Assembly: GCA_947504275.1 (NCBI GenBank)
Contig: CANNHA010000011.1
Location: 1 to 35,590 of the forward strand
From: Flavobacteriales bacterium
GTDB lineage: Bacteria; Bacteroidota; Bacteroidia; Flavobacteriales_D; Sanyastnellaceae
Length of the DNA stretch: 35,590 bases
Direction: 5' to 3'
The position numbers and the translations under genes are program-made. The notes beneath the pieces are model-generated. The model was not told where the DNA came from and searched no databases. It was given only the letters and a program-made list of their open reading frames with translations. Each line of letters begins with the position of its first letter. Position 1 is the stretch's first letter. Shown here one piece after another: positions 9,100-26,947 of this stretch.

Positions 9100-10413
9100 A
9101 TGAATATTGCGGTGGTGGGAACAGGTTATGTCGGTTTGGTAACCGGAACGTGTTTTGCTGAAACAGGAAATAAAGTCATTTGCGTGGACATCAATGAGGA
9201 AAAGGTAAATGCCATGAAGGCTGGCAAGATTCCCATCTATGAGCCGCATTTGGATGTTTTGTTTGAGAGAAACATAAGAGAAGGACGATTGAAGTTCACC
9301 ACCAATTTGCAAGAGGCCATTGAAATGGCTCAAATTATCTTTTTGGCTTTGCCTACCCCTCCAGGAGAGGACGGCAGCGCTGATTTGAGCTATGTCTTGA
9401 AAGTGGCTGATGATTTGGGATGGCTCATTAAAGATTACAAAGTTATCGTAGACAAATCAACTGTTCCTGTGGGTACAGCAGAGAAGGTTAGAGAAGCCGT
9501 GGCTCGCAAAGCCCAGGTTCCTTTTGACATCGTCAGCAACCCTGAATTCTTGCGTGAAGGATTTGCAGTGGATGATTTCATGAAGCCTGACCGTGTTGTG
9601 GTGGGCACCTCAAGTGACCGCGCCAAAAAAGTTATGGAAGAGTTGTACAAGCCATTTATTCGTCAAGGAAATCCTTTGATTTTTATGGATGAGCGCAGCG
9701 CTGAATTGACCAAATACGCCGCCAATGCCTTTTTGGCCACAAAAATCTCATTCATGAATGAAATTGCCAATTTCTGTGAGAAAGTAGGTGCCGATGTGGA
9801 TATGGTTCGCCTAGGAATTGGAACAGATGAGCGCATTGGAAAAAGATTCTTATTTCCTGGTATCGGTTACGGTGGTTCTTGTTTTCCCAAAGACGTGCAG
9901 GCTTTGGCCAAGAGCGGTGTAGAAAACGGCTATGAATTCAGAATTTTAAAAAGTGTTATGAAAGTCAACGATCGTCAAAAGACAACGCTGCTTACGCCCA
10001 TCATGGAACATTTCAATCAGCAATTGACCAAAAAGAAAATTGCCATCTGGGGATTGGCTTTCAAACCGGACACTGATGATATCAGAGAAGCACCTGCCTT
10101 GTATATGATTGAGCACTTGCTAGAGGCCGGAGCAGACATTATAACCTATGATCCTGAGGCGATGGAGAACGTTCAAAAGCAAAAAAACTATCCCATTCAG
10201 TACTCACAAGATCAGTATTCACTTCTAGAAGATGCTGATGCATTGCTAATTTGCACGGAATGGGGAATGTTTAGAAATCCCGACTTTGAATTGATGAAAA
10301 ACGCCATGAAAACACCTGTTATTTTTGATGGTCGAAATCTGTATGAAGTAGGCAGAATGAAAGAGATGGGATGGAATTATTACAGCATCGGAAGACAAGC
10401 AATTACCCAATAA
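9100..10413 (+). CDS. ugd: UDP-glucose 6-dehydrogenase
   Basis: [65 protein letters not shown]. Confidence 0.95.
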
Positions 10414-10414
10414 C

Positions 10415-11401
10415 ATGGCAAGAGTATTAATAACCGGTGCTGCAGGATTTTTGGGTTCACACTTGTGCGACCGATTTATCAAAGAAGGATTTGATGTGGT
10501 AGGAATGGACAACTTGATTACCGGTGATCTCAAAAATATTGAACATCTTTTTCCTCTGCCGAAGTTTGAATTTTACAATCATGATGTGTCCAAATACATT
10601 CATGTTCCAGGTGAAATCGACTACATTTTACATTTCGCCTCTCCTGCCTCTCCCATTGATTATCTTAAAATTCCTATTCAAACATTGAAAGTTGGTTCAC
10701 TAGGAACACACAACTGTCTTGGGTTGGCCAAGGAAAAAGGTGCACGAATCATTGTTGCCAGTACCAGTGAAGTATACGGTGACCCCCACGTCCACCCGCA
10801 AATAGAAAGCTATTGGGGAAATGTTAATCCCGTTGGACCTCGTGGTGTTTATGATGAAGCCAAGCGCTTCCAAGAAGCCATTACTATGGCTTATCATACC
10901 TTTCATGGCTTAGAGACTAGAATTGTCCGGATTTTCAATACTTACGGACCGAGAATGCGACTCAATGATGGTCGCGTTTTGCCAGCGTTCATTGGTCAAG
11001 CCTTACGAGGTGAGGATTTGACCATATTTGGTGACGGATCACAAACGAGAAGTTTCTGTTATGTAGATGATTTGGTGGAGGGAATTTATCGTCTATTGAT
11101 GAGTGATTACGCCCAACCTGTTAACATTGGAAACCCTGATGAAATCACCATCAAAGACTTTGCTGAGGAGATCATCAAGTTGACACAAACCAATCAGAAA
11201 GTCGTGTACAAAGAACTGCCCACAGACGATCCCAAGCAGCGCAGACCAGATATTACATTGGCCAGAGAAATCCTTGGTTGGGAACCAAAAGTACACCGTA
11301 GCGAAGGTTTAAAAATCACCTATGATTATTTCAAAACACTCTCATTGGATGATTTGAATAAAATAGAGCACAAAAACTTTGAATCGTACAACAAAAAGTA
11401 A
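10415..11401 (+). CDS. UDP-glucuronate decarboxylase (UDP-xylose synthase-like extended SDR)
   Basis: [57 protein letters not shown]: strong UXS pattern. Confidence 0.92.
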
Positions 11402-11973
11402 TGGGATATTTCGCACATGAAACGGCTGTTATCGATGCAGGTTGCGACATAGGTGAGGGTACCAAAATCTGGCATTTCTCTCACATCATGTCCAATTGCA
11501 GGATAGGAGAGCGTTGTAATATTGGACAAAATGTTGTCATTAGTCCTGATGTGATTTTGGGAAACAATGTCAAGGTACAAAACAATGTTAGCCTTTATAC
11601 TGGAGTAATCTGTGAGGATGATGTCTTTTTGGGACCTTCATGTGTTTTCACCAATGTGATTAATCCCCGAAGCGCTGTGACTCGCAAAGATGAATACCGC
11701 CAATCCATTATACGGAAGGGTGTCTCCATAGGGGCCAACGCAACCATCGTTTGTGGATATGAAATTGGAGAGTATGCATTTATTGGCGCTGGAGCTGTCA
11801 TTACCAAACCAGTAAAAGCTTTTGCACTGATGGTGGGCAACCCTGCAAGACACAAAGGTTGGATGTCTAAAGCTGGATATAAATTGACTTTTGATCAAGA
11901 TGGCATTGCAATGTGCCCTGAGACAAAAGAAAAATATAAATTAGAAAACGAAAACGTAACTTTTTTAGGATAA
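11401..11973 (+). CDS. Left-handed beta-helix (hexapeptide) N-acetyltransferase, WbpD-like
   Basis: Hexapeptide repeats: DIGEGTKIWHFSHIMSNCRIGERCNIGQNVVISPDVILGNNVKVQNNVSLYTGV, and GNPARHKGWMSKAG. Confidence 0.88.
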   Translation: MGYFAHETAVIDAGCDIGEGTKIWHFSHIMSNCRIGERCNIGQNVVISPDVILGNNVKVQNNVSLYTGVICEDDVFLGPSCVFTNVINPRSAVTRKDEYRQSIIRKGVSIGANATIVCGYEIGEYAFIGAGAVITKPVKAFALMVGNPARHKGWMSKAGYKLTFDQDGIAMCPETKEKYKLENENVTFLG

Positions 11974-11979
11974 AAGAAG

Positions 11980-13278
11980 ATGATTTACCAAGATTTGATT
12001 GAAAAGAAAAAGAGCCTTTGTGTAGTTGGACTAGGCTATGTAGGCCTTCCGATTGCTTTAGAATTCGCCAAAAACCTTAAGGTTGTAGGTTTTGATATCA
12101 ATCCAGAGCGGGTTGCTATGATGCAAAACAATGTCGACCCATCCAATGAATTGCCTAGCAGCGCTTTTGATGGGTGTGACATTACTTTTACCCACAAAGT
12201 AGAAGATCTCACCGAAGTAGGGTTCTTTATTGTGGCCGTCCCAACGCCCATCAACAACATGAATCTACCTGATCTTGGCCCTGTCATCAGCGCCTCTAGA
12301 ACAGTAGGAAAAGTATTGAAGAAAGGTGACTATGTTGTTTATGAAAGTACCGTCTATCCTGGTTGCACAGAAGACGACTGCGTGCCCGTCCTTGAAGAAA
12401 TCAGCGGTCTCAAAATGGGGATTGATTTCAAAGTAGGATACTCTCCAGAGCGCATCAATCCTGGTGACAAAGTGAACACTTTGCGCAGCATCATCAAGAT
12501 TGTGTCTGGTTGCGACGAGGAAAGTTTGAATGAAATTGATAAGGTTTATTCTGTGGTCATTGATGCAGGTTTGCACAGAGCCGCTAGCATCAAAGTAGCA
12601 GAAGCGGCCAAAATCATTGAGAATACCCAACGTGATGTGAACATTGCCTTGATTAACGAATTGTCTTTGATTTTTAATAAAATGGGATTGAACACTTATG
12701 ATGTACTTGAAGCTGCAGGAACCAAATGGAATTTCCTAAAATTTCAACCCGGTTTAGTAGGCGGACATTGCATCGGTGTTGACCCCTATTACTTGGTTTA
12801 CAAAGCCAAGAAGATGGGTTACTTCTCCAAAGTGATTTCATCAGCGCGTTATGTCAATGATTCCATGGGAGCATACGTAGGTAAACAAACGGTCAAGAAG
12901 ATCATGGAAATGGGGAAAAATGCTTTGGAATCAAAAGTATTGGTGATGGGGGCTACTTTCAAAGAGAATGTCAGCGACATTAGAAATTCCAAAGTCATTG
13001 ACATCATCCGCGAATTAGAAAGCTTCTCCGTTCAAGTGGACATCGTTGACCCACATGCGGACAGCGAAGAATTACACCACGAGTACGGTTGTACTTTGGT
13101 ACCACAACCTTCTCCCCATACGTATGAAGCCATTATCATTGCCGTTGCCCACAATGAATACCTAAATATGGATGAACAATACTTGACTTCATTGCTAAAA
13201 AATGGTCAGGGGGTTTTGGTGGACATCAAAGGCTCATATCGCTCTAAAATCAAAAACTTGCATTATTGGAGTTTGTAA
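11980..13278 (+). CDS. Nucleotide sugar dehydrogenase (UDP-HexNAc 6-dehydrogenase, WbpA/TviB/WecC type)
   Basis: CVVGLGYVGLPIALEF, STVYPGCTEDDCVPVLE, GYSPERINPGDK, LVGGHCIGVDPYYL, ATFKENVSDIRNSK. Confidence 0.93.
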   Translation: MIYQDLIEKKKSLCVVGLGYVGLPIALEFAKNLKVVGFDINPERVAMMQNNVDPSNELPSSAFDGCDITFTHKVEDLTEVGFFIVAVPTPINNMNLPDLGPVISASRTVGKVLKKGDYVVYESTVYPGCTEDDCVPVLEEISGLKMGIDFKVGYSPERINPGDKVNTLRSIIKIVSGCDEESLNEIDKVYSVVIDAGLHRAASIKVAEAAKIIENTQRDVNIALINELSLIFNKMGLNTYDVLEAAGTKWNFLKFQPGLVGGHCIGVDPYYLVYKAKKMGYFSKVISSARYVNDSMGAYVGKQTVKKIMEMGKNALESKVLVMGATFKENVSDIRNSKVIDIIRELESFSVQVDIVDPHADSEELHHEYGCTLVPQPSPHTYEAIIIAVAHNEYLNMDEQYLTSLLKNGQGVLVDIKGSYRSKIKNLHYWSL

Positions 13279-13310
13279 AAAGTTTCCTGACGTATTTTTA
13301 ATTTCATCTT

Positions 13311-15212
13311 ATGAAAAAATCTATCTTAGCCCTGTTCACATGTTGTCTTCAGGGCTTTTTGACATCAGCGCAACCCGTGCAGCACAATTATGTAATCGAA
13401 CAAGAGCTCAATGGTCTTGACATTATTGAAGACAAAAGATCTCCTCAACTCCCATTGGCGAATTACGGTGTGCAAATCATTACCGCCAAAGACATTCAAA
13501 AACTCCCTGTTAGAAATGTAAGTGAGGCTTTGCTTTTTGTAAACGGTGTTGATGTTCGAAGTCGCAACACTTTTGCGCAGAGCGATGTCAGCTTGATGGG
13601 CTCATCTTATGATCAAATCCTCATTCTGATTGATGGAATCCCCATGCGTGACCCGCAAACAGGTCACCACCAAATGAACCTGCCAGTTGATCTTAGTCAA
13701 GTTGAGCGTATCGAGGTTTTCAAAGGATCTGCAGCAAGAATGTTCGGCGCAGGTGCATTAGCCGGAGCCATCAATGTTGTGACCAAAGCACCTGGCAGTC
13801 AAAAGCTCAATGTGCTTTCTTATTGGGGAACCAATGGAGAGAAAGACACCGCAACCGGTGAGGCATATACCCAAAATGTTCAGCAAGTATCCTTGGGGTT
13901 TGTCAAAGAAAGATCTGGTCACACCATACAATTGAGACGTTTGTTCACCAATGGATACCAATACAATTCGGGTGTCGAGCAACAGAATATTTTTACAAAC
14001 AGTAGCTTTGTACTAAAGAACAACCATAAAATTCAATGGATCAATGGTCTGTTCAACAATAGTTTCGGCGCCAAAGATTTTTACGCTTCACCATATGATA
14101 CCGATGCCTTTGAGCAGGTGAAAACCATGTTCTCAGGCGTGAACGGAGATTTCAATTGGAAAAGATGGCGTGTTGTGCCCAGACTATACCACCGTTACAA
14201 TGAGGATCATTATGTATTCATCAGGAGTAAACCAGAGGTGTACGAAAATTTTCATTATGGCACAACTACAGGTGCTGAGTTACACGCTTCCCGTGCCAAT
14301 GTTTGGGGTTTAGTGGCTTTGGGTGGCGAAACCCGATGGGATTGGTTGCGCAGCAACAACTTGGGCAAGCATGAGCGTCAATTTTACAGTGGTTATTTGG
14401 AGCAACGTTTCAATCCATGGGGGAAACTCAACGTGATTATCGGTAGCAATTTTCAATACACATTGTTAAGCGATGAATTGCAACAAAACAACCAAGGATG
14501 GAAAGCCTATCCTGCAATGGACATTGCTTACAAAACTGAAAATGGTCAAGTTTATGTGCACACAGGCAAAGGCTCTCGCCTGCCCACCTATACCGACTGG
14601 TATTATAAAGATTCGCGCAACCAAGGGAATCCATTGTTGGTAGCTGAAGAAGGCTTTAATGCGGAAACAGGATTTCTTTACAAGCAAAACGCATTCAACA
14701 TTCAAGGTTGCTATTATTTCAGAAGAGTGAACAATCAAATTGATTACGTTCTAACGTCGCTTCCGGATTTCACTCAAAAATGGACACCTTTGAACATCGG
14801 TATTTCAACTTTCACTGGATTTGATTTTGTAGCACAATGGAACAACAACCCGAACACCGATCAATGGTTCTATTTTCTAAACGCAGGTGTAAAAGCGACG
14901 CTCTTAAGTTCCATGATGGATTCTCAAGATCTGCCCTCTCGTTATGCCGCTGAACATTTGACCCAACAATTCATTGGGCAATTGGCCATAGGACAAAAAG
15001 GAAAATTACAACATCAATTGATGGCCCGTCACTTTCAACGAATGGGACAAAACAACTACACCACCATTCTTGACTGGCGCTCACAATTGAATCTAGAAAA
15101 GGTTAATGTATTCATAGATATCAACAATCTCAACAACCAACAGTACATCTTAAATGGTTTTGTTCAAATGCCAAGAAGATGGTTCAATGTTGGTGTTCAA
15201 TTTCAAATATAA
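13311..15212 (+). CDS. TonB-dependent outer-membrane receptor
   Basis: Signal peptide; plug domain VQIITAKDIQKLPVRNVSEALLFVNGVDVRSR...ILILIDGIPM...VERIEVFKGSAARMFGAGALAGAINVVTK; beta-barrel with C-terminal aromatic residue. Confidence 0.92.
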   Translation: MKKSILALFTCCLQGFLTSAQPVQHNYVIEQELNGLDIIEDKRSPQLPLANYGVQIITAKDIQKLPVRNVSEALLFVNGVDVRSRNTFAQSDVSLMGSSYDQILILIDGIPMRDPQTGHHQMNLPVDLSQVERIEVFKGSAARMFGAGALAGAINVVTKAPGSQKLNVLSYWGTNGEKDTATGEAYTQNVQQVSLGFVKERSGHTIQLRRLFTNGYQYNSGVEQQNIFTNSSFVLKNNHKIQWINGLFNNSFGAKDFYASPYDTDAFEQVKTMFSGVNGDFNWKRWRVVPRLYHRYNEDHYVFIRSKPEVYENFHYGTTTGAELHASRANVWGLVALGGETRWDWLRSNNLGKHERQFYSGYLEQRFNPWGKLNVIIGSNFQYTLLSDELQQNNQGWKAYPAMDIAYKTENGQVYVHTGKGSRLPTYTDWYYKDSRNQGNPLLVAEEGFNAETGFLYKQNAFNIQGCYYFRRVNNQIDYVLTSLPDFTQKWTPLNIGISTFTGFDFVAQWNNNPNTDQWFYFLNAGVKATLLSSMMDSQDLPSRYAAEHLTQQFIGQLAIGQKGKLQHQLMARHFQRMGQNNYTTILDWRSQLNLEKVNVFIDINNLNNQQYILNGFVQMPRRWFNVGVQFQI

Positions 15213-15215
15213 ACG

Positions 15216-16274
15216 ATGGCTAGAAGAATTTTAATTACGGGAGGTGCTGGTTTCATTGGATCACATGTCGTTAGACGCATGGTAAACAATCATCCTCAAG
15301 ACACCATCATCAATTTTGACGCTTTGACTTATGCTGGTAACTTGATGTCATTGTCAGACATTCAAGATGCCCCAAATTATCGATTCATCAAAGGAGACAT
15401 TTGTGATGAGGCGTTTGTCTTAAAGACAGTCCTGGAAAACAACATCACCCACATCATTCATTTGGCTGCCGAGAGTCATGTAGATCGCTCGATACATGAT
15501 CCATTGGCATTTATCAAAACCAACGTTTTGGGAACGGCCAACATGCTCAATGCAGCGCGCGTTGCATGGAAAGACAACATGGATGGAAAATTGTTTTACC
15601 ACGTCTCAACAGATGAGGTCTTTGGAACCTTGGGCGAAGAAGGCAAATTTTCTGAGGCCACACCGTATGATCCCCACAGTCCATATTCGGCGTCCAAAGC
15701 ATCAAGTGACCATTTGGTCAGGGCCTACCACGATACGTATGCAATGCCCATTGTTATCAGCAACTGCTCCAACAATTACGGAACGCATCAATTCCCTGAA
15801 AAATTGATACCGTTGGTCATCAATAATATTCTGAACAAAAAACCATTGCCCATATACGGAAAAGGCGAAAATGTGCGTGATTGGTTGTGGGTTGAAGACC
15901 ATGCCCGAGCCATCGAAATCATATTAGAAAAAGGGAAACACGGACACACCTATTGCGTCGGTGGAAACAATGAATGGAAAAACATTGACTTGGTAAAGTT
16001 GATTTGTAAGACAACAGATGAATTATTGGGCAGACCTGAAGGAGACGCTGATCAGTTAATTACCTATGTAACAGATCGTCTGGGACATGATCATCGCTAT
16101 GCCATTGATGCTTCCAAATTAGAAACAGAATTGGATTGGCATCCCACACAGGATTTTGGTCAGGCCCTGAAAAAAACCATTCAATGGTACCTCACCCAAA
16201 GAGAATGGGTTGATGCTGTCACCAGCGGGGAGTATCAGCGGTTTTATGCTCAGAATTATGTAAGCGGTGTTTAG
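15216..16274 (+). CDS. rfbB: dTDP-glucose 4,6-dehydratase
   Basis: ILITGGAGFIGSHVVRRM, LAAESHVDRSIHDPLAFIKTNVLGT, STDEVFG, YSASKASSDHLVRAYHDTY, NCSNNYG. Confidence 0.95.
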   Translation: MARRILITGGAGFIGSHVVRRMVNNHPQDTIINFDALTYAGNLMSLSDIQDAPNYRFIKGDICDEAFVLKTVLENNITHIIHLAAESHVDRSIHDPLAFIKTNVLGTANMLNAARVAWKDNMDGKLFYHVSTDEVFGTLGEEGKFSEATPYDPHSPYSASKASSDHLVRAYHDTYAMPIVISNCSNNYGTHQFPEKLIPLVINNILNKKPLPIYGKGENVRDWLWVEDHARAIEIILEKGKHGHTYCVGGNNEWKNIDLVKLICKTTDELLGRPEGDADQLITYVTDRLGHDHRYAIDASKLETELDWHPTQDFGQALKKTIQWYLTQREWVDAVTSGEYQRFYAQNYVSGV

Positions 16275-16417: not shown

Positions 16418-19400
16418 TTATCTTACCACCTGCAACCTAATCCTTTCGCCACCAAAATCAATCAAATAAAGCCCCGATTCCAAATCTCCAAAATTGATTT
16501 CTGCGACATTACCATTCAACACCACGTTGGTTTTAAACACAACCTTACCTGTGACATCTCTCATGACCAATTCCTGGACGGATTCATTTTCCGTTGCAGA
16601 TTCCAGGGCGAATATCAATTCGCCCCTACGATGACCGTTGTACTCTAAAACAAAACTACCTGTTGATGTAGGATTAGGATAAATTGAAATACTGGATACT
16701 CGTGACTCTGCACTCCAATTACTCCCGCTCTCATTCTCGCTCTGTAGAACCATTCCCGCCGTTCCCACTCTCAAACAATAAGCCGTACCCCACTGTCCCG
16801 CTGACCCGCTGCTGTGAACCGCACGGACCCTCACGCTGTAGGTTTTTCCGGTTGTGATGCTGGGTACATTGCTCAAGAAAAATACCGAGGCATTGGAGCC
16901 GCCTGGAATGATTTGAGTAGTTCCCTCTACTGGTAACACTTCCGTAAACTCCCACTCGTAGCGCACCGCTCCGCAAACGGTTCTATCCGGTGCAATGGTG
17001 GAGGTAAGAGATTTGATTTTTGGACAGCGGTCACTTAGCCTCAATGATATTGTATTTTCAGACAACAACGTTGCTGATCCTAAAACCGTTGGTTGAGCGA
17101 CAATCGTTTCCATGTTATTGGCAGCATCTGCAACCTGATAAATCACCGGGACTCGCATGCCATAAACAATTGAGGCACCCGATTGATTCACTGGAAGAAT
17201 ACTACCCAACCTACCCACTAAGGAACTTGCACCTGAAGTAGTGTAGCTCCAAGGCTCGATCAATAAAGCAACTCCATTTTGCTGAGCAGACAAAACTTCA
17301 AACTGATAATGAGATGCATTGGCCTTAAATGAGGCCTTAAAGCTGTTGCATACGTTGGTGTAAATTCCTGTGTTATTGCTGTAATAATGATCCACTGAGG
17401 ACCCTACAAAGTGATTAAAACAAATCTTGGCACTGGGATTCATAACTCCTGAAATGTTTTGAACCGCCACCCAATATTCAACACCAACTTGCAAGTCATC
17501 ACTCAACAATACTTGATTACCTGAAGTGTTCTCGTGTTCAATTAATTTCAATTCCATGCATTCTCCTTCCACTCTTTCAAACAACAACAAACGATTGTTT
17601 CCTGTTGCCGCTGACAAACCGACACGAATATTATTGTAATTGGAGACAAATGAAAACCAGATTGACCTTCCTTGAATTCCTTCCAAATTCACTATGGCAC
17701 CGGTATTCAAATTGGCGCTCTTAACTGCATTTCCTGTGCATGAAGGATACAGCGATGATGAAACCAAAACAGGATTAACTCCAGGAAAATAACTCCCTGC
17801 AATGGCAAAACCATCGCAATCCTCATCCCATTCATTGCCACAAATCTCAGACATAGATGGATTGATACTTGCCCACTCATCATCACAATCTGAATTGTCC
17901 AAAACAAACCCCTCTTGTATCAAACAAGAAACAAATCCTACACTATTGGTTCCATATCCATCACCGTCAAAGTCAGCATAGTAATAAAATTGGGCCAAAT
18001 TCTCATCCGTCACTCCATCACAGTTATCATCCAAATCATTACAAACTTCAGTAGCAGCTGGATTCACCAGAGGATTGTCATCATTGCAATCCACCAAATT
18101 GGTGTAACCATCATCATCCAAATCCACTTCACAACCCTCGTCAATAAAACCATTGCAATTGTCATCAATGCCATTTCCACATTGTTCATTTGCATTGGGA
18201 TTGACATTGGGATTGCTGTCCTGACAATCACCATGCTGTGCAACGTAACCAAATGGCAAAATACATTTGATCAACACCACTTCGGCATTACCTGCTCCAT
18301 CATTGTCCAAATCCTCGTAGTAAGTTTCAAACACCAATCCTTCATCAATCACTGCATTACAGTTGTCATCAAGATCATTGCAAATCTCCACAGCTGATGG
18401 ATTAATCATGAATACCCAATCATTACAATCACCTTCTTGGGGAACAAAACCAAAAGGTTGGTTGCACGCATTAATTGCATTCTCACTCTGTCCAAATCCA
18501 TCTTCATCGATATCTTGATAATACGATTCATAAATCAATCCATCATCGACTAAAGCATTACAATCATTATCAAGGCTATCGCAAAATTCAATGTTGTTGG
18601 GATGCACGACCGTATTGGCATCATCACAATCCTCTTCATTGTTGACATAACCCTCCAGGGCTTCACAGGCCATTTGAACCATCATCCCATTGCCATATCC
18701 GTCTTGATCTTGATCTTCAAATTGAGCATAAACAAGCCCTTCATCTACAAGCCCATTGTTGTTGTCATCCAAACCATTGCACACTTCGGTGCCTTGCACA
18801 TATTGGAAATGACAAAAACGGGTTTCACCAAAATTGACAAGCAATGACTCTGCTACCATTTCTTGACCTGACCCATCAAAGAAACGGACAGCATCTAACG
18901 TAGCCACATTATCAATAACCAAACTCAATGAAGAGGCTGCATTAAAACTCACCCATGTCACGTACAATGTATCATTTGAAGTCTCTGTCTCGATATGTGC
19001 GGCAATTCGCTCTCTCCAAAAGTCTCCAAAATCATCCAAGAACATGTATTTCAAATCATTACCAAGTCCATTGACATACTGCTGTTCAGCCAATAATTTG
19101 TAACCTCGATTGGGGTGTATCAATAAGACCGTTGGTGCATTATTGGCCAAGTTCTTTTGCGTAATATTCATCCAATTCTGCGCGTATGAACTATAGTTTT
19201 CCTGACTGAATGGAATGGATGCTGAGGCATCTGAAATGGTCATTGGGATTTCGAGAACATTGGTTTGCGTCCCGGAAAATTTCAGTTCGTCAATATCAAA
19301 AAACGGGAAATTGGTTAGGACATCGTTCGCAGAAAAAGTAGAATTATACAGATATCCCAAATCTTGCAAGGCTTTGGGCAGTCTAGGATTAAAAGCCAAG

Positions 19401-20602
19401 TGGCCAGCCCTAAAAGACTTCACCTGAACATTGTGGTTGGTTTCTAAAAGGTATTTAGACACCTCCACCTCTCCATAAACATTTCCACCTGTGGTAACCC
19501 CATTGTAGTACCTCGGTTGATAATCTAGTTGAGTGTTTCCAGGGGATGACAAGGGAAATGTAGTGGCGTTATAATAATCTGGGAAATGCCCAACCGAGTG
19601 TGAAGCAATTTTTTGTCCTTTGCTCTTAACATACTCTACTTTATCCAATGAAATGGGATAAAAAGCGGTCATCCAAGAATCAGCAAAATACCTTGTTGTA
19701 ACATTGTACGTACTGTTTATGCCATGCGTTTGCTCATAATCCGCAAAAATGGCCATGCTATCCATGGCAGTTCTGCTATCGATATCGTGCGTAACCATTA
19801 CTACACCCGATTCACAATCCGGACAAGTATGCACGCGCACCGCATGATCAGTATGCTCCCGTATAATGTTGGTGACAAAAAAAACAAAAGTGTCTGTGGT
19901 AGGTTCAAAACCATTAGAATAGGTTCTATGTGCATTCAAATCGCTATTGATTAAATTGCGCATGACAACATCACGCAAATCTATACCTATCAAAAATGCA
20001 TGGCCCTCTCCATACTCATGGTGTATCACCGCAGCCAAGTTGTTCTCGTAATGGGCAAGTGTTTCCGAATTTCCAGATGGAGTATAAGATCTAATATTGA
20101 AGGCTGACGAAAAGGTATCTGAACTATCTGCTAAAGAAATCATTTGCTCCATGGGGTCATCTATTCGGTCAAAATACCCAAGCTCCTGATCAGTATGCCA
20201 ATACATCCGTTTCAAATCAGTATGAGTAGTATAGCTCGACACCCCAAACAAAGCATATAAATCAGGATCGCGCATCGATGATGCAATGAGCACCCCGCCG
20301 CCATTGACATATTGTATCAATTGATTCTTCTCAGCCGATGTAAAAGTTCCTGGTATAATCACAGGAGACAATAAGACAATGGGATATTGCAAAACAGAAT
20401 CAAGGACATTGCTCTCACGATAAGAAACACCCCCAACCTGCAACAAATGCCTGCATGAGCGAATTCTCGAAAGATTGGTCTCACTGTTCTTTATGGTCAA
20501 ATCCAATAGTCCGACTTGAACCTGTTGACCGAGAAGGGATGAAACATTGGTTGCAAATAGCAAGACGAATAAGACCCAACTAAGCTTCATTTTTAACTTC
20601 AT
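16418..20602 (-). CDS. Secreted multidomain protein: N-terminal GATase1/ThuA-like region, CE4 (NodB-like) polysaccharide deacetylase, MopE-type metal-binding repeats, Fn3-like region, T9SS C-terminal sorting domain
   Basis: Signal peptide; VVMVTHDIDSR, SHSVGHF, RAGHLAFN and HPNRG (CE4-like motif order); repeated EVCNDLDDNCNxxxDEG...DxDxDGxG...DCDD units; tail SISIYPNPTSTGSFVLEY...LESGLYLIDFGGERIRLQVVR. Confidence 0.85.
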   Translation of the reverse strand: MKLKMKLSWVLFVLLFATNVSSLLGQQVQVGLLDLTIKNSETNLSRIRSCRHLLQVGGVSYRESNVLDSVLQYPIVLLSPVIIPGTFTSAEKNQLIQYVNGGGVLIASSMRDPDLYALFGVSSYTTHTDLKRMYWHTDQELGYFDRIDDPMEQMISLADSSDTFSSAFNIRSYTPSGNSETLAHYENNLAAVIHHEYGEGHAFLIGIDLRDVVMRNLINSDLNAHRTYSNGFEPTTDTFVFFVTNIIREHTDHAVRVHTCPDCESGVVMVTHDIDSRTAMDSMAIFADYEQTHGINSTYNVTTRYFADSWMTAFYPISLDKVEYVKSKGQKIASHSVGHFPDYYNATTFPLSSPGNTQLDYQPRYYNGVTTGGNVYGEVEVSKYLLETNHNVQVKSFRAGHLAFNPRLPKALQDLGYLYNSTFSANDVLTNFPFFDIDELKFSGTQTNVLEIPMTISDASASIPFSQENYSSYAQNWMNITQKNLANNAPTVLLIHPNRGYKLLAEQQYVNGLGNDLKYMFLDDFGDFWRERIAAHIETETSNDTLYVTWVSFNAASSLSLVIDNVATLDAVRFFDGSGQEMVAESLLVNFGETRFCHFQYVQGTEVCNGLDDNNNGLVDEGLVYAQFEDQDQDGYGNGMMVQMACEALEGYVNNEEDCDDANTVVHPNNIEFCDSLDNDCNALVDDGLIYESYYQDIDEDGFGQSENAINACNQPFGFVPQEGDCNDWVFMINPSAVEICNDLDDNCNAVIDEGLVFETYYEDLDNDGAGNAEVVLIKCILPFGYVAQHGDCQDSNPNVNPNANEQCGNGIDDNCNGFIDEGCEVDLDDDGYTNLVDCNDDNPLVNPAATEVCNDLDDNCDGVTDENLAQFYYYADFDGDGYGTNSVGFVSCLIQEGFVLDNSDCDDEWASINPSMSEICGNEWDEDCDGFAIAGSYFPGVNPVLVSSSLYPSCTGNAVKSANLNTGAIVNLEGIQGRSIWFSFVSNYNNIRVGLSAATGNNRLLLFERVEGECMELKLIEHENTSGNQVLLSDDLQVGVEYWVAVQNISGVMNPSAKICFNHFVGSSVDHYYSNNTGIYTNVCNSFKASFKANASHYQFEVLSAQQNGVALLIEPWSYTTSGASSLVGRLGSILPVNQSGASIVYGMRVPVIYQVADAANNMETIVAQPTVLGSATLLSENTISLRLSDRCPKIKSLTSTIAPDRTVCGAVRYEWEFTEVLPVEGTTQIIPGGSNASVFFLSNVPSITTGKTYSVRVRAVHSSGSAGQWGTAYCLRVGTAGMVLQSENESGSNWSAESRVSSISIYPNPTSTGSFVLEYNGHRRGELIFALESATENESVQELVMRDVTGKVVFKTNVVLNGNVAEINFGDLESGLYLIDFGGERIRLQVVR

Positions 20603-20653
20603 GACATTCCCTTTTAGGTAATCCTTCTACGACAAACTAATCCAACATGTTTC

Positions 20654-21961
20654 TTACAAATGCATTTTCTTTGCAAATGCCGATGATTTGGGAGGATTCC
20701 ATGGATCATTGTATGACTCTTTAAATATTAGTTCTTGTAGATAAGCCTTTGTTCTTACAAAACGAAGAAAGTAGCCAAAGTAAAGCACCATACCTGGCAA
20801 GTATGGCAAGAAATAGGCAATGGGTTCCTTTTGTGACAGGCGGAACGCAGAGAATATGATAAACTTCAAAAAATAATTAGCTGTGTAAAGCGCAAGGTTG
20901 GTCAGCAATATAAATGGCAATAAGGACGTGAAGTTTAATAAGATGTCAGCGATGTAGAAATACCATTTGAAGTTTAAAACCAAATTGTAAAAAATGTTCT
21001 CGATAAATGAAATAAAATTCAACCATGAAAAGTTTTTAGATGGCAAGAGAACATCAATGTGCTTGCGCAAGCGAAAGCGCACCAAACTCTTATCCCAACG
21101 CAGCCTTTGTTTGGCCAATTTGCGAAAAGTGTCGGGAGCTGATGTTTTACATACCGCTGTGGGTTCATATTTAACCTTGTAACCCATTTTCCTCAACTTT
21201 ACAGTAATATCACCATCCAATCCAGGCCCTACATCCCATCCACTTATTTTATCCAAGGCATCTCTTCTAAAAGCGCCAAAAGCACCGCTAATTACCCTGT
21301 AAATACCCAACTCACTGCTGGAAATACGACCTATGGAAATACTATCAAAATACTCGATGGCTTGAAAAGTAGCCACCAGTGAATCCTTGTAATTTCTTAC
21401 TTGAACATTTCCACCAACTCCACCTATCAAAGGATCCGTATAAAACAACTTAACAATGTTCTCCATCGCATCAGGACTATAAGAACAGTCCGCATCTAAA
21501 TGAACCACAAACTCACCCTTAGACAATCGCAAAGCTAAATTGGCAGCAGATGCCTTTCCTCCCCTCACTTCATTGCGCACAAACAGATCAATCATACCGT
21601 TCTTTTCCAAACTTCTGCAAATGCGCTCCGTATCGTCATCACTGCCATCATCAATAATGATCAATTCAAAGTTTTGATAGGTCTGCTGTTTCAGTGACTG
21701 AACCAATTTATAGATATGCTTGCCCTCATTTTTCCCGGGCACAATTATGGAAATCAATGGCATCCGTGTCCAAAACTCATAATGCGCTTTGGTAATCTTG
21801 TCCTTTCTAAATCTGTGCGTGAATCGCCACAATATGAGGACAAACAACTCGAATATGAAGAATCTTAAAAACTCAAATATTACAAAAAAATAGAAATAGC
21901 GAAAGAATTTACCTAAAGTGATAAACTGAACAAAATTGATAAAGTCATCAATGAAATTCAT
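20654..21961 (-). CDS. Processive-type family 2 glycosyltransferase (membrane polysaccharide synthase, HAS/NodC/PgaC-like)
   Basis: N-terminal TM, SIIVPGKNEGKHI, DDGSDDDT, HLDADCS (DxD), GLDGDIT, QRLRW (QxxRW), then several C-terminal TM segments. Confidence 0.9.
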   Translation of the reverse strand: MNFIDDFINFVQFITLGKFFRYFYFFVIFEFLRFFIFELFVLILWRFTHRFRKDKITKAHYEFWTRMPLISIIVPGKNEGKHIYKLVQSLKQQTYQNFELIIIDDGSDDDTERICRSLEKNGMIDLFVRNEVRGGKASAANLALRLSKGEFVVHLDADCSYSPDAMENIVKLFYTDPLIGGVGGNVQVRNYKDSLVATFQAIEYFDSISIGRISSSELGIYRVISGAFGAFRRDALDKISGWDVGPGLDGDITVKLRKMGYKVKYEPTAVCKTSAPDTFRKLAKQRLRWDKSLVRFRLRKHIDVLLPSKNFSWLNFISFIENIFYNLVLNFKWYFYIADILLNFTSLLPFILLTNLALYTANYFLKFIIFSAFRLSQKEPIAYFLPYLPGMVLYFGYFLRFVRTKAYLQELIFKESYNDPWNPPKSSAFAKKMHL

Positions 21962-23367
21962 TCACGATTCAATTTTTTGCGCATGTCTTTCATCAATTCA
22001 CCACTGCTCTTGCATTCGTTGTAATTGATAACAACCTGCTTCAAATCCATTTTAAAAGAATTATAGTTCTCAGAAATCAATTTCTGAATGAGTTTTGAAA
22101 CTGGCTCTGACTTCTCACCATCGATGACAACTTCGTTGGAATAGCGTTTTGTCCAGATAAAGTGGCCTTGATTATTGATGGTAACAAAATCCTTTAGTGT
22201 CATTTCACCTTTAATAATATCAGCCAATTCCCTGATTAAACTTTGTTTTTTAAACCCTCCAAAATGTGCACTGAACTCATTGATATTACCTATCGACAAA
22301 CCATTCAATACATGCTGCCAATCCGGTTGACTATTGGCATGAATAAAATCAAAATGCAATAAGATCTCAAATGTTTTCTCATCTTGAATTTCCTCCAATG
22401 CCAAATGTGGTTTCTCATCCAAGTCCGAGAGGCCTTCTGTAATGGCCAACCTACCTTTCTTGGTCAGTTTGTATGCGCTAATATTTCGAGCTTGCAAGTA
22501 CTGAACATCCGTATCGTGGGAGCAGTGCATGCACTTGGCCTTAACAAAAATATCTTGAAAGCGACTGTCGCATGAATTGCAATGATTCAAAACAGCGGGC
22601 TTGTCATAATCTACGCCCACGTGGTGCAAACTCTTGTTGCACTTGGGACAACTCAGGGCATCGGTATCTGCCTTTTGAAAATCAGAAATGGGTCCAATAT
22701 AGGCACAAGGAAAATGATGTATCAAATCCTCTCCATAAGTATTGGAAGAACTGCAATGCGGACAAACTTCTCTAAACAACAATAAACCAGCACTGCACTG
22801 ATTGCACAGATAAATTTTCTCGACAAAATCTGGCCAGATGTATCCGTTGAACTCTGCCCAATCCAATGCAGCCAATACCTCCGTCTCCTCATGCGGTTCA
22901 AAGGACATTGACACCGTGGGATAGGCATAACCGATAATGGAATATGGATCCAACACAGGTTCGATCACTTTGGTCTGTCTCGTATACATCAAATCCAACG
23001 CCTTCTTCATCACTATGCCATACTGGCCTGCTGGCACCTTGGATGTCAAATCCAATGAACGAACAAATATATCATTGGTCTTCAACTGCAATTGATCTTC
23101 ATCCACTGATCCATCAACAAAACCATCAATCAACATACCCAATACAGCAGGTGATTTAGAGGAATAACGCTGAATAAAAATAGGCTTTAAATACACCTCA
23201 GGTTGGTGATGCCGTCGGATAGCATATACCGTACTCCGGACAAAATCGACATTGGGAGAATCAACAATAACGGCATCATGACCCATCAAAAAAGGAAACG
23301 AATATCCGCTATCGGAAGTGATTTTCAAAACCAAGGTTTGGCCAATTTTAAAACTTTGGTAACTCAT
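21958..23367 (-). CDS. Cys-rich zinc-ribbon cytosolic protein, possibly TackOD1-domain containing
   Basis: 469 aa with no signal peptide; paired motifs CNQC...CPHC, CPKC...CNSC, CMHC; degenerate receiver-like N-terminus (AVIVDSPNVDFVRSTVYAIRRH). The TackOD1 name is from memory and was not searched. Confidence 0.6.
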   Translation of the reverse strand: MSYQSFKIGQTLVLKITSDSGYSFPFLMGHDAVIVDSPNVDFVRSTVYAIRRHHQPEVYLKPIFIQRYSSKSPAVLGMLIDGFVDGSVDEDQLQLKTNDIFVRSLDLTSKVPAGQYGIVMKKALDLMYTRQTKVIEPVLDPYSIIGYAYPTVSMSFEPHEETEVLAALDWAEFNGYIWPDFVEKIYLCNQCSAGLLLFREVCPHCSSSNTYGEDLIHHFPCAYIGPISDFQKADTDALSCPKCNKSLHHVGVDYDKPAVLNHCNSCDSRFQDIFVKAKCMHCSHDTDVQYLQARNISAYKLTKKGRLAITEGLSDLDEKPHLALEEIQDEKTFEILLHFDFIHANSQPDWQHVLNGLSIGNINEFSAHFGGFKKQSLIRELADIIKGEMTLKDFVTINNQGHFIWTKRYSNEVVIDGEKSEPVSKLIQKLISENYNSFKMDLKQVVINYNECKSSGELMKDMRKKLNRE

Positions 23368-23370
23368 TTC

Positions 23371-24456
23371 TCAGTACTTGAATTTTTTGACCTGAACCCC
23401 CATCTTGTAAAAGTTCTTCCACTTAACGCCTTCAATTGAATCACTTGGGTAAATATCTCCCGCGACAGATCTGGTTGTTGGTTCAAATCGTTTCTGATAC
23501 TCCTCTGGCAATGGAATTGTCGAATAGTAAAAACGTTGCACGATGCCTTCCGATATCTCCCCATTTGGAAAAATCACTTCAAAGCGATCACCAACTTGAA
23601 AATGATCAATATCGGCCTGCTCAAAATATGCCCGCACAAACACAGGAGAGGTTCTGTGAATGGACATGGAAATTTCTGACTTCAAACAGGTCTCAAATGG
23701 ACGCGTATAGATCCTATTCACGCTTCCTTCAAATGGCGAAATATAAAATTTCAGTTTATTATCATCGCCACTACTGCGTCCTTCCGCTTCTGCAAGCATA
23801 GGTCGCTCCAAAGGAATGTCCACTCGCATGCTGTTCAACTTTGAAATGGTCAATTGATACTCCAAAATTTCACCTTCCAAGCGACTTTGCTCGGCGTCGA
23901 GTTTGGTAATATCGTTCAATTTATTTTGTAAATGTGATTGAGGAATTACCCCCAACTGAACTTGAGATTTGATGGTGGTTAGCTCACGCTGATAGGTCGT
24001 CATCAATTGCTGATTCTCAGCCACTTTCACCTTGTTCAAATTGATTTTTTGTTCCACCGAGATGAGCTCACGTTCAATCCAATCATTGTTGTTCTGCACT
24101 CTTCCTGTTGTGCTTACGCCCGACATACGCAGTTTCACATCACTATCACTTTCATCAGACGACTCAACATAACTGAACAAAGTATCTCCAATTTTTATAG
24201 TATCATCAACATTGACAAAATAATCAATGATTCGGCTGTCCTCTAATAAACGCACATTGACATTCTCGTAAAGAATGTGGCCATCTGCCTTAACATAAAA
24301 CAATCTGGAAAAGATGAAATATGCGATACTTCCCAATAGAATAAAAAACACAATGAAATAAATCATTCTATCCCATTGTCGTTTATTCTTAACCAATGTT
24401 TTCTCATTGATCACTCGAATATCAGAGCCTTGTCGTTTAAAATTTACACTTTTCAA
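23371..24456 (-). CDS. HlyD-family periplasmic adaptor / membrane fusion protein
   Basis: One N-terminal TM, ADGHILYENVNVRLLEDSRIIDYFVNVDDTIKIGDTLFSY (lipoyl half), central coiled coil, VFVRAYFEQADIDHFQVGDRFEVIFPNGE. Confidence 0.85.
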   Translation of the reverse strand: MKSVNFKRQGSDIRVINEKTLVKNKRQWDRMIYFIVFFILLGSIAYFIFSRLFYVKADGHILYENVNVRLLEDSRIIDYFVNVDDTIKIGDTLFSYVESSDESDSDVKLRMSGVSTTGRVQNNNDWIERELISVEQKINLNKVKVAENQQLMTTYQRELTTIKSQVQLGVIPQSHLQNKLNDITKLDAEQSRLEGEILEYQLTISKLNSMRVDIPLERPMLAEAEGRSSGDDNKLKFYISPFEGSVNRIYTRPFETCLKSEISMSIHRTSPVFVRAYFEQADIDHFQVGDRFEVIFPNGEISEGIVQRFYYSTIPLPEEYQKRFEPTTRSVAGDIYPSDSIEGVKWKNFYKMGVQVKKFKY

Positions 24457-24459
24457 AGC

Positions 24460-26538
24460 TTATGGATTTATTTGTAAATAGGATTCAAAATCATGGATTG
24501 CAAATCGTTTGCTCTTCAGCCAAGGAGCCATTGCTTGCATATCCTTTTCCATGTCCTGACGCAATTTGTAATCTTTGGCGCTTAAAGCTATCGTGGCTTT
24601 ATCTCCAAAAACATTGAGTTCCTCTTCAGACCTTCTTTGTATGGCTTCCACCCCTGTTGTCTCGTAAGCCATCACCACAATTTCATCACTATTGTCTTTT
24701 AACACATTTAACACCTTTGTATCATAATACAACGGGATCGCAAAGCCCAATGAAACAGCTTTGGAATCTGCCCAATTGTGCAATTGAACAACCATCTGGG
24801 AATACCGTGACATCAAACTGTCTTTGTCCAGCTTGTAGGCTTCCATTGTATGCGGTTCGATGTCAATATGCACACCTGCCAACAATACTCCATTCAACTT
24901 TTTCCATACACTGTCCATTTTGGCTACAGCATCACCTTCCAACCATTGATTATGACCTATCAAGAGATGAACGGAGATATCCTTCTTTTGCAATTCATTG
25001 CACAGGGTTTTAAACCGTTGTACCTGCTCTGCTCCATTTCCTGCAGAAAGATATACCTCTTGTATACCCCACTGCAACAATTTTTCAGTAATGAACTCTG
25101 GCTCACGCTGAGCGATGGACTTGGACCACATGTACATATTCCGACTTCCTGTCAGCACCTTTTCCTCTGATTGAAATGAAATGGGTTCCTCATAAGGAGA
25201 CCATGATCGGATGTATTGCAGGACATTCTCCTCTGGCAACAGCCCATGAATATCACCCAACTTCAAATACAATTGCTGCTGAGCATCTAACTTTTCAATC
25301 TCTAAATTCCAAAGGTTTAACAGTACATTCAAAGCTTCCAGGGGCTGGAAATATTCAGTATTCACTTTGGCCTGCTCGCCAAAAGTCTCCAATTGTTGAC
25401 GCAATAAATCCTGCCTTCCCACAGCCACCGCATACTGCTTCAACTTGTATCTGTACTCATAAACAAGAGCAGAAACCTGTGTCCATTTCAACTCGGTTTG
25501 AACCTGCAATTGAGACTTGGCCTTCTGAAGTTTCAAAGAACTCAATGATTGATAATCCTTATTGAAAATCCTCAAAGGCACATTGGCGTTGAGTCCCATT
25601 GAAATGAATGCCCTATCCCTCATATTGTCTTGTAAGTCAAAATAGTTGTACTTAAAGCTGTAAGATAGCCCTACCTCATTGATCCAATGTTTTCGCCAAG
25701 CATCATTCTCCTCTTGCAGCATCAATTGGCGATCTTGCACCGGATGATTGTTGCAAAGCATTCTAAGGGCCTTGACATTGATATCAAACAAGGGCCAAGA
25801 ATTAGAAATATTTACAGAAGACGACTGTACCAATCCTTCCATGCCATCATTAAATCCGCGGTAGGTCTGAATTTGTCCATTGGTCTCCATCAATTGCTCG
25901 TAGACTTTATAGAGTTCATCATTCAATGCAGGATAAAGGGAAACAGCTTGCTTCAGTATGACAATCTCATCTTGTAAGACTTTCTTTTTCTTCTCCAAAA
26001 CCTGCACTTTTTGGGCATTGAACAAAAAGAGTACATTGTTTTTGCTCCAATAAGAAATACTCTGGTTGCGATTCTCCGTAGCAGTGAGCAATTCAATGTT
26101 CTTCTCATTAACCAGCGCCTTGGATTCAAAGCCATTGGCAACAAGCCCTCCAGCTAAGATGTCCCAATTGAAACCTGTAGTGGTCTTGGCCTTGTAAAAA
26201 AGATTTTCTTCTGATGGTTGTGGATCAAAGTTCTGTATAATATTTGTATTCCACGATAAACCATAATCAGCCCTAACAGCTTTGGATTTCTGGTTGTAAT
26301 ACTGTTCTATTTGCTGCAATATTTCAGGAGACTTGGCTGAATTCACGTCCGGCCACAGGGATGGAACAACTTCTAAATTCAAGACACTTAATTTAGGAAA
26401 TGGATTTGACGCATGTTGCAACCAAAGATTGCTCAATTGGTCAACGGCTGAGTTGGATGACCCAGGTTGCGCCAATGCAAAAAGAACTGACAAACAAGCC
26501 ATAAGACCCATTAAAACACTTTTCAAATTCCTTTTCAT
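24460..26538 (-). CDS. TolC-like outer-membrane protein with C-terminal GH18-like TIM-barrel domain
   Basis: Signal peptide MKRNLKSVLMGLMACLSVLFALAQ (ATG at 26538; listed ORF starts at 26646). TolC-type coiled-coil/barrel repeats to about aa 460 of the mature protein; C-terminal part has GVHIDIEPHT and EIVVMAYETTG, resembling GH18 DxxDxDxE and MxYD motifs. Confidence 0.72.
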   Translation of the reverse strand: MKRNLKSVLMGLMACLSVLFALAQPGSSNSAVDQLSNLWLQHASNPFPKLSVLNLEVVPSLWPDVNSAKSPEILQQIEQYYNQKSKAVRADYGLSWNTNIIQNFDPQPSEENLFYKAKTTTGFNWDILAGGLVANGFESKALVNEKNIELLTATENRNQSISYWSKNNVLFLFNAQKVQVLEKKKKVLQDEIVILKQAVSLYPALNDELYKVYEQLMETNGQIQTYRGFNDGMEGLVQSSSVNISNSWPLFDINVKALRMLCNNHPVQDRQLMLQEENDAWRKHWINEVGLSYSFKYNYFDLQDNMRDRAFISMGLNANVPLRIFNKDYQSLSSLKLQKAKSQLQVQTELKWTQVSALVYEYRYKLKQYAVAVGRQDLLRQQLETFGEQAKVNTEYFQPLEALNVLLNLWNLEIEKLDAQQQLYLKLGDIHGLLPEENVLQYIRSWSPYEEPISFQSEEKVLTGSRNMYMWSKSIAQREPEFITEKLLQWGIQEVYLSAGNGAEQVQRFKTLCNELQKKDISVHLLIGHNQWLEGDAVAKMDSVWKKLNGVLLAGVHIDIEPHTMEAYKLDKDSLMSRYSQMVVQLHNWADSKAVSLGFAIPLYYDTKVLNVLKDNSDEIVVMAYETTGVEAIQRRSEEELNVFGDKATIALSAKDYKLRQDMEKDMQAMAPWLKSKRFAIHDFESYLQINP

Positions 26539-26947
26539 TCCATGTTTACCAAAAGGTTTGCAAATAAAGGTGACAATTCTCATTTTTATGTCATCAAAAC
26601 GTACATTTCTTCTTAATTTTTCGTTAATAATAATATTGTCTAACATAATCGTGTTCTCAACCTAGGGAAAGGTGATGGAGAAAGCGGAAAAGAGAAGAGT
26701 TGGTTTTCGCTTTGCGCACTGATCGGATTGTTGAAGAGCTTTGCATTTTTGTTGTATAAAGCAAAGCGCGGAAAGGTTTCCCACCAATCTGCCTTCCACC
26801 ACAGCACGGTCATTAACAAGCAAAACCTTTTTGAGCCGAAAACTGAAAACGAAATTGAACATGTCAATGAGCCGATCTACTGCGGTGTCTTGGAAGATGG
26901 TCAATGATACCCCTCACCTGTGTAAGAATTACACATTTTAGCAAGAA

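Follow-up and report, generated by a model that had tools for sequence, protein, structure and literature searches.

Do genes for an export duct, a zinc protein and a membrane glycosyltransferase that lie end to end belong to one machine, or are they neighbours by chance? The question is raised by a minus-strand locus in a Flavobacteriales bacterium, on a stretch of 35,590 nucleotides (contig CANNHA010000011.1, here called the window), for which an earlier note made from the letters alone had proposed an exopolysaccharide synthesis, modification and export operon. The five genes named there are all recovered in the list of open reading frames (ORFs), at 24460-26646, 23371-24456, 21958-23367, 20654-21961 and 16418-20602, together with the 3-nt gaps (24457-24459 and 23368-23370), the 4-nt overlap (21958-21961) and the 51-nt gap (20603-20653) between them. 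The first ORF extends to 26646, and since a signal-peptide-like stretch begins at the in-frame ATG at 26538, the latter is the better start. All on the minus strand, the genes encode a TolC-like outer-membrane duct ending in a barrel that resembles glycoside hydrolase family 18 (GH18) (24460..26538), an HlyD/EmrA-like periplasmic adaptor with a TTG start codon (23371..24456), a protein with the zinc domain TackOD1 (21958..23367), a membrane synthase of glycosyltransferase family 2 (GT2; 20654..21961) and a secreted deacetylase resembling carbohydrate esterase family 4 (CE4; 16418..20602). The domain assignments of the earlier note stand, some through structure or motif alone. Judged from the sequences, the cassette is probably a dedicated machine for synthase-dependent exopolysaccharide assembly and export.

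The evidence that carries this reading comes from the neighbourhood of TackOD1 in other genomes. When genome contigs were scanned with a TackOD1 alignment, at least 591 places matched the pattern; 587 were confirmed, and the best 80 loci were analysed. Where the contig reaches, GT2 lies downstream of TackOD1 in 78/78 loci, HlyD lies upstream in 75/75 and the TolC-GH gene upstream in 72/72; every missing neighbour belongs to a locus that begins or ends no more than 250 nt from a contig end, and no unassigned ORF of at least 150 aa was found within the cassette. In one locus (L093) a CE4 gene sits between HlyD and TackOD1. Two further samples were picked blind to neighbours. Among 60 order-level relatives, 8 have TackOD1 over the cut-off, with GT2 adjoining in 7/7 besides the window; in the phylum, 13 TackOD1 genes from 12 of 395 genomes pass the cut-off, and GT2 adjoins all 13, the window's included. 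Thus the claim that five genes are conserved together divides: TolC-GH, HlyD, TackOD1 and GT2 keep company in the best 80 loci and in the phylum sample, and the deacetylase, near the cassette in 10/80 loci, does not. The gene order recurs across phyla, which is beyond chance, and the carriers are many bacteria of water and soil. One Bacteroidota genome (G412) has two TackOD1-GT2 cassettes of different subtypes about 15 kb apart (L116, L134). In a Nitrospirota sample, 1 of 148 genomes has TackOD1 over the cut-off, a metagenome-assembled genome (MAG) with a Bacteroidota-type cassette (L096) and 11 matches to GGDEF, the domain of enzymes that make cyclic di-GMP (c-di-GMP); this cassette looks like a lateral transfer.

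The same neighbourhoods bear on the most prosaic alternative, that HlyD and TolC export drugs, or proteins by the type I route, in the usual way and have GT2 as a chance neighbour. The best curated model for the adaptor is indeed that of a drug-pump adaptor, EmrA (TIGR00998, 1.1e-5, below cut-off), and the best structural matches of the duct in Foldseek are TolC-type efflux channels. However, the cassette holds no inner-membrane pump gene, whether ABC, RND or MFS, in the best 80 loci; the HlyD/TolC pair is kept with GT2 in Bacteroidota and Proteobacteria and in one Nitrospirota MAG; and the duct bears a glycoside-hydrolase domain. A standard efflux or type I exporter, against which the earlier note had set its own proposal, is rejected for want of a pump gene in the cassette in those 80 loci, and we consider an exporter with GT2 as a mere neighbour highly unlikely.

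Proteobacteria were covered through plasmid records. The plasmid search returned 19 matching records, all of which were inspected, unannotated places being read with our own profiles; two more plasmid searches using other TackOD1 queries gave no additional records. GT2 directly follows TackOD1 at 16/16 bacterial places (15 proteobacterial plasmid records), and HlyD is within view at all but one of them, where the record ends. In Aeromonas caviae, small mobilizable plasmids of 29 kb (L105 / L013) carry the whole cassette in the order TackOD1-GT2-TolC-HlyD, and since TolC there likewise ends in a GH domain (E 1.1e-5), the fusion extends beyond Bacteroidota; in Methylocystis the GH is encoded as its own gene beside TolC (E 1.7e-7). 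One Photobacterium replicon has two TackOD1-GT2 cassettes (L010, L139). The haloarchaeon Halorussus, which has no outer membrane, encodes TackOD1, a DUF2334 protein that we take to be CE4-like, and GT2, with neither HlyD nor TolC, which would fit a role of HlyD and TolC as the outer-membrane part of the set.

The zinc protein is the constant companion of the synthase. What had been described simply as a cysteine-rich zinc protein is TackOD1 (PF18551, E 2.4e-48, 164.6 bits against a cut-off of 32; model mean predicted local distance difference test, pLDDT, 86), and its zinc domain, with zinc ribbons and 11 cysteines, occupies residues 121-301 (22465..23007). All 11 cysteines are kept in 118/118 aligned rows, which are partly redundant. 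Ahead of this domain lies a receiver-like part, with which the REC-GGDEF proteins PleD, WspR and DgcR align from residue 8-11 on, with a root-mean-square deviation (rmsd) that is large from the domain arrangement. Behind it, residues about 319-469 (21961..22413) form a degenerate GGDEF-fold domain, as judged by structure (VIA Z 14.8 to 3icl_A/4yme, rmsd 3.0-3.2 over 140-142 residues; Foldseek 1.4e-6) and by sequence profile (3ign, 2.4e-7). The TackOD1 proteins of Plesiomonas (41.6 bits) and Photobacterium (32.3) pass the Pfam GGDEF cut-off (PF00990, 23.8 bits), as does one from Bacteroidota, the sole GGDEF match of genome G635 being inside its TackOD1 gene (L074). At the I-site the window has TLKD and not RxxD, a motif present in 41/118 TackOD1 rows, some of them redundant. 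Palleronia and Roseibium proteins have a true receiver domain at the N-terminus, and the phylum sample includes six loci (L120-L122, L124, L125, L134) with a separate ORF of 106-119 aa, a homologue of the TackOD1 N-domain, between HlyD and TackOD1. The zinc core is constant and the input modules vary by group: a receiver in some Alphaproteobacteria, GGDEF with RxxD in Gammaproteobacteria, and both eroded in Bacteroidota.

A GGDEF fold beside a synthase invites the idea of control by c-di-GMP, and the earlier note had placed the zinc protein in the slot of a regulator of that type. The fold it would need is present; the enzymes, in most of the carriers examined, are not. A search detected no GGDEF protein at all in 63/66 carrier genomes, several of which are incomplete MAGs, and the exceptions are G635 (where the match is TackOD1 itself), G615 (2 matches) and the Nitrospirota genome G060 (11 matches). 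The search works, since it was positive in 8/14 control genomes. Hence it is unlikely that the GGDEF fold of Bacteroidota TackOD1 reads c-di-GMP; it may be a scaffold, or a binder of something else. Nor does RxxD track c-di-GMP enzymes, because Crocinitomix-type genomes with no GGDEF protein still have it. For the window protein in particular a role as c-di-GMP reader is not upheld, the I-site arginine being lost and the same search having found no GGDEF enzyme in the genome.

The synthase itself is a GT2 protein of 435 aa (PF00535, 2e-29) with the motifs DDGS, DADC, LDGD and QRLRW, the last, a QxxRW motif, visible in both the sequence and the alignment. Its best curated model is the PgaC/IcaA equivalog, at 174 bits against a cut-off of 422, a shortfall on which a plain poly-N-acetylglucosamine (PNAG) system is rejected; conversely, E. 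coli PgaC scores 208 bits with the profile of the cassette GT2 family. In a tree that included 54 cassette GT2s, those next to bacterial TackOD1 form a cluster that excludes the Halorussus GT2 as well as PgaC and BgsA (94/92), the reference branches being long and their placement therefore unsure. At 21209-21223 of the window the GT2 motif is GLDGD, with LD in place of the ED seen in PgaC, in BgsA and in the proteobacterial members; most Bacteroidota members share this LD.

These scores matter for a second alternative, in which the locus would be a beta-glucan system of the Bgs or Xcs type, making cellulose or a mixed-linkage glucan. The logic of GT2 plus HlyD (plus TolC) is shared, as far as the text available from the two sources goes, with BgsBA (PMC9495663), the mixed-linkage beta-glucan pair of Sinorhizobium and Rhizobium in which a GT2 works with an HlyD-like partner, and with XcsAB-TolC (PMC12430437). 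The window GT2 has 435 aa against 669 aa for a BgsA ORF, and c-di-GMP is described in the available text as binding the C-terminus of BgsA (PMC9495663). The likeness does not extend to the sequences or to the rest of the set. With profiles of the cassette families BgsA reaches 52 bits and BgsB 22, and on this distance a Bgs system is rejected; and the stretch of pSymB examined around BgsBA gave no match to TackOD1, TolC-GH or GH. The cassette hydrolase is GH18-like and its co-occurring enzyme is a deacetylase. The window GT2 has no PilZ match in Pfam. A beta-glucan system of either type is thus unlikely, though it has more to recommend it than the exporter.

The identities of the duct and its barrel come largely from structure. 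The AlphaFold model of the first protein (pLDDT 83.6) matches Klebsiella TolC in Foldseek (7ng9, E 3.2e-12), and the protein has no OEP match in Pfam. The GH18-like domain (24463..25152) spans residues about 499-728 of the 728-aa ORF and resembles GH18 chitinases (7z65, E 4.5e-5; 4wiw, E 5.2e-5). In an alignment of 35 proteins, 16 columns are invariant, among them D595, E597, M659, Y661, E662, H718 and D719 in the barrel, where D595 and E597 stand in an HxDxE context; the full GH18 motif is DxxDxDxE. The barrel has no GH18 match in Pfam, and the TolC-GH profile, searched against solved structures, gave a single weak glycosidase row.

The last gene calls for a different kind of evidence, as it is a facultative partner. 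It encodes six MopE-type metal-binding repeats and a C-terminal tail of the type IX secretion system (T9SS), which is above cut-off in PF18962 (28.3 against 27) and below it in TIGR04183 (17.2 against 23); the T9SS protein SprA is encoded in the same genome (2430 bits). The motifs THDxD, HSxGH and IHPxR are invariant in 11 members of the deacetylase family and provide the D and HxxxH motifs of the CE4 metal triad. The family follows the cassette through genomes. In the relatives it occurs in 5/8 TackOD1 carriers and 0/52 non-carriers (Fisher 1e-5; by genus 0.008), and in the phylum sample in 3/12 carriers and 1/383 others (p 8e-5; 0.002 without the window's genome), shared ancestry being not fully corrected in either test. 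In three of those five relatives (G001, G006, G038) it is unlinked, lying on a different contig or some 0.8 Mb off, and a family-profile search found it in 25/61 carriers. As the family occurs with the cassette even where the two are unlinked, there is good evidence for a deacetylase that works on the cassette's product; the earlier view of it as a member of the locus is replaced by that of a partner which is not fixed in the cassette and travels with it genome-wide. A second recurring neighbour is a CotH-like gene after GT2, seen in 15/80 loci (L025, L029, L033, L035, L036, L042, L044, L054, L063, L064, L067, L086, L089, L090 and L091); the one member checked in Pfam, that of L067, has a CotH kinase domain, an LTD domain and a T9SS tail.

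Several observations weigh against a dedicated polysaccharide machine. Keeping the 80 loci with the best scores biases them towards the window, and at four places in the phylum sample (L116-L119) the short flank searched gave no match to HlyD. HlyD and CE4 identities are both weak in sequence searches: the CE4 model PF01522 scores 12.9 bits against 23.1 (E 0.11), below cut-off, and the alignment profile of the CE4-like protein returned, from solved structures, rows in the T9SS-tail region and a weak beta-galactosidase row only. The GH18-type chemistry of the barrel is drawn from its predicted fold and the D-x-E pair, and the deacetylase family is missing in 36/61 carriers, about 60%. Finally, 3 of the 4 TackOD1 copies on archaeal plasmids lack a nearby GT2, so TackOD1 is not always bound to a synthase role. 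These three haloarchaeal copies, which stand alone, lend themselves to another explanation, in which TackOD1 serves generally as an output for signalling or DNA binding, the product of GT2 is a glycolipid or a glycan on proteins, and the locus is a regulated envelope-glycan pathway with no polymer export. TackOD1 was, in fact, defined as the output domain of response regulators and occurs in thaumarchaeal type IV pilus loci, according to the available text of PMC5847659. Yet GT2 adjacency is constant in Bacteroidota and Proteobacteria, and a complete export duct lies beside TackOD1 in all 72 of the assessable loci. An envelope-glycan pathway without export is therefore quite improbable.

For the dedicated exopolysaccharide machine, the parts suggest the following course. 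At the inner membrane, GT2 would build a chain from a nucleotide sugar and thread it into the periplasm; HlyD, as adaptor, would couple GT2 to a TolC-like trimer, through which the chain would leave across the outer membrane. The GH18-like barrel on the duct may trim or clear the polymer at the exit, and the CE4-like deacetylase of the dedicated family, exported by the T9SS, may modify it at the cell surface. TackOD1 would be a cytosolic regulatory or assembly subunit, presumably in contact with GT2, that gates or holds the synthase. Synthesis and export of a polymer, and the outward direction of transport, are what we infer from this set of parts. GH18 enzymes commonly use the N-acetyl group of the substrate, and CE4 enzymes remove an N-acetyl group; because of this chemistry and the PgaC model nearest to the synthase, the polymer could be N-acetylhexosamine-based, a guess that we rate slightly below even. 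Convergent to the cassette, on the plus strand at 9100-16274 of the window, is a nucleotide-sugar gene block with two nucleotide-sugar dehydrogenases, an NAD-dependent sugar epimerase/dehydratase-like protein, a hexapeptide acetyltransferase, a TonB receptor and a dTDP-glucose 4,6-dehydratase, possibly a separate polysaccharide pathway.

Among known systems, the best reading places the cassette close to the scheme proposed as XcsAB-TolC in cyanobacteria, which likewise has a QxxRW GT2, an HlyD-like adaptor and an exit of the TolC type, with a glycoside hydrolase associated with them (PMC12430437, in the text available). The earlier note had called it non-canonical for the product of a GT2 to leave by TolC/HlyD, and there is in this proposal a precedent for it. 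The Xcs-type tripartite set of GT2, HlyD adaptor and TolC duct is all present at the window locus, with a weak HlyD match. According to the same text XcsA, XcsB and TolC do not lie in one operon, their model lacks validation, and some XcsA variants carry PilZ. In contrast, the cassette is a single operon with its GH18-like hydrolase fused to TolC, a TackOD1 regulator, a co-occurring deacetylase family, and no PilZ match on the window synthase. The PNAG system of E. coli (pgaABCD) offers the nearest curated synthase model and shares deacetylase and hydrolase activities, but its porin PgaA and its PgaD have no counterpart in the cassette, and PgaB is annotated as a fusion of deacetylase and hydrolase, whereas at the window locus TolC bears the hydrolase and the deacetylase is a protein of its own. 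Pel resembles the cassette in having a degenerate-GGDEF cytosolic protein, PelD, in control of the synthase, and deacetylase and hydrolase parts (PMC7112168, available text); no Pel genes were recognised at the window locus, and zinc ribbons and a receiver-like domain replace the GAF domain of PelD. The archaeal TackOD1 response regulators share the domain and its 11 cysteines with the cassette protein, and the available text of their 2018 account, which concerns type IV pilus loci and terms the function obscure, does not mention a GT2 partnership (PMC5847659). In the literature searched, mostly without subscription journals, no description was found of the TackOD1 partner, the TolC-GH18 fusion or the dedicated deacetylase.

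What follows for the family may be broader than one locus. There is about an even chance that TackOD1 marks a separate, hitherto unnamed class of polysaccharide synthase complexes, present in Bacteroidota and Proteobacteria as well as in at least one haloarchaeon, in which a zinc-ribbon/pseudo-GGDEF subunit is obligatory to GT2, the inputs for phosphorylation or c-di-GMP have been swapped or lost around a kept zinc core, and an HlyD/TolC duct with a built-in hydrolase is added where there is an outer membrane. The cassette supplies what the cyanobacterial review, in the text available, names as a gap, namely GT2, HlyD and the TolC duct in one operon (PMC12430437). It also raises the question of why a GGDEF-fold domain is retained in bacteria apparently without GGDEF enzymes: streptococcal PelD, where c-di-GMP is absent, is reported to have no GGDEF domain (PMC7112168, available text), whereas TackOD1 keeps the fold in genomes without such enzymes. 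Above all, a conserved zinc domain of obscure function gains a role that can be tested.

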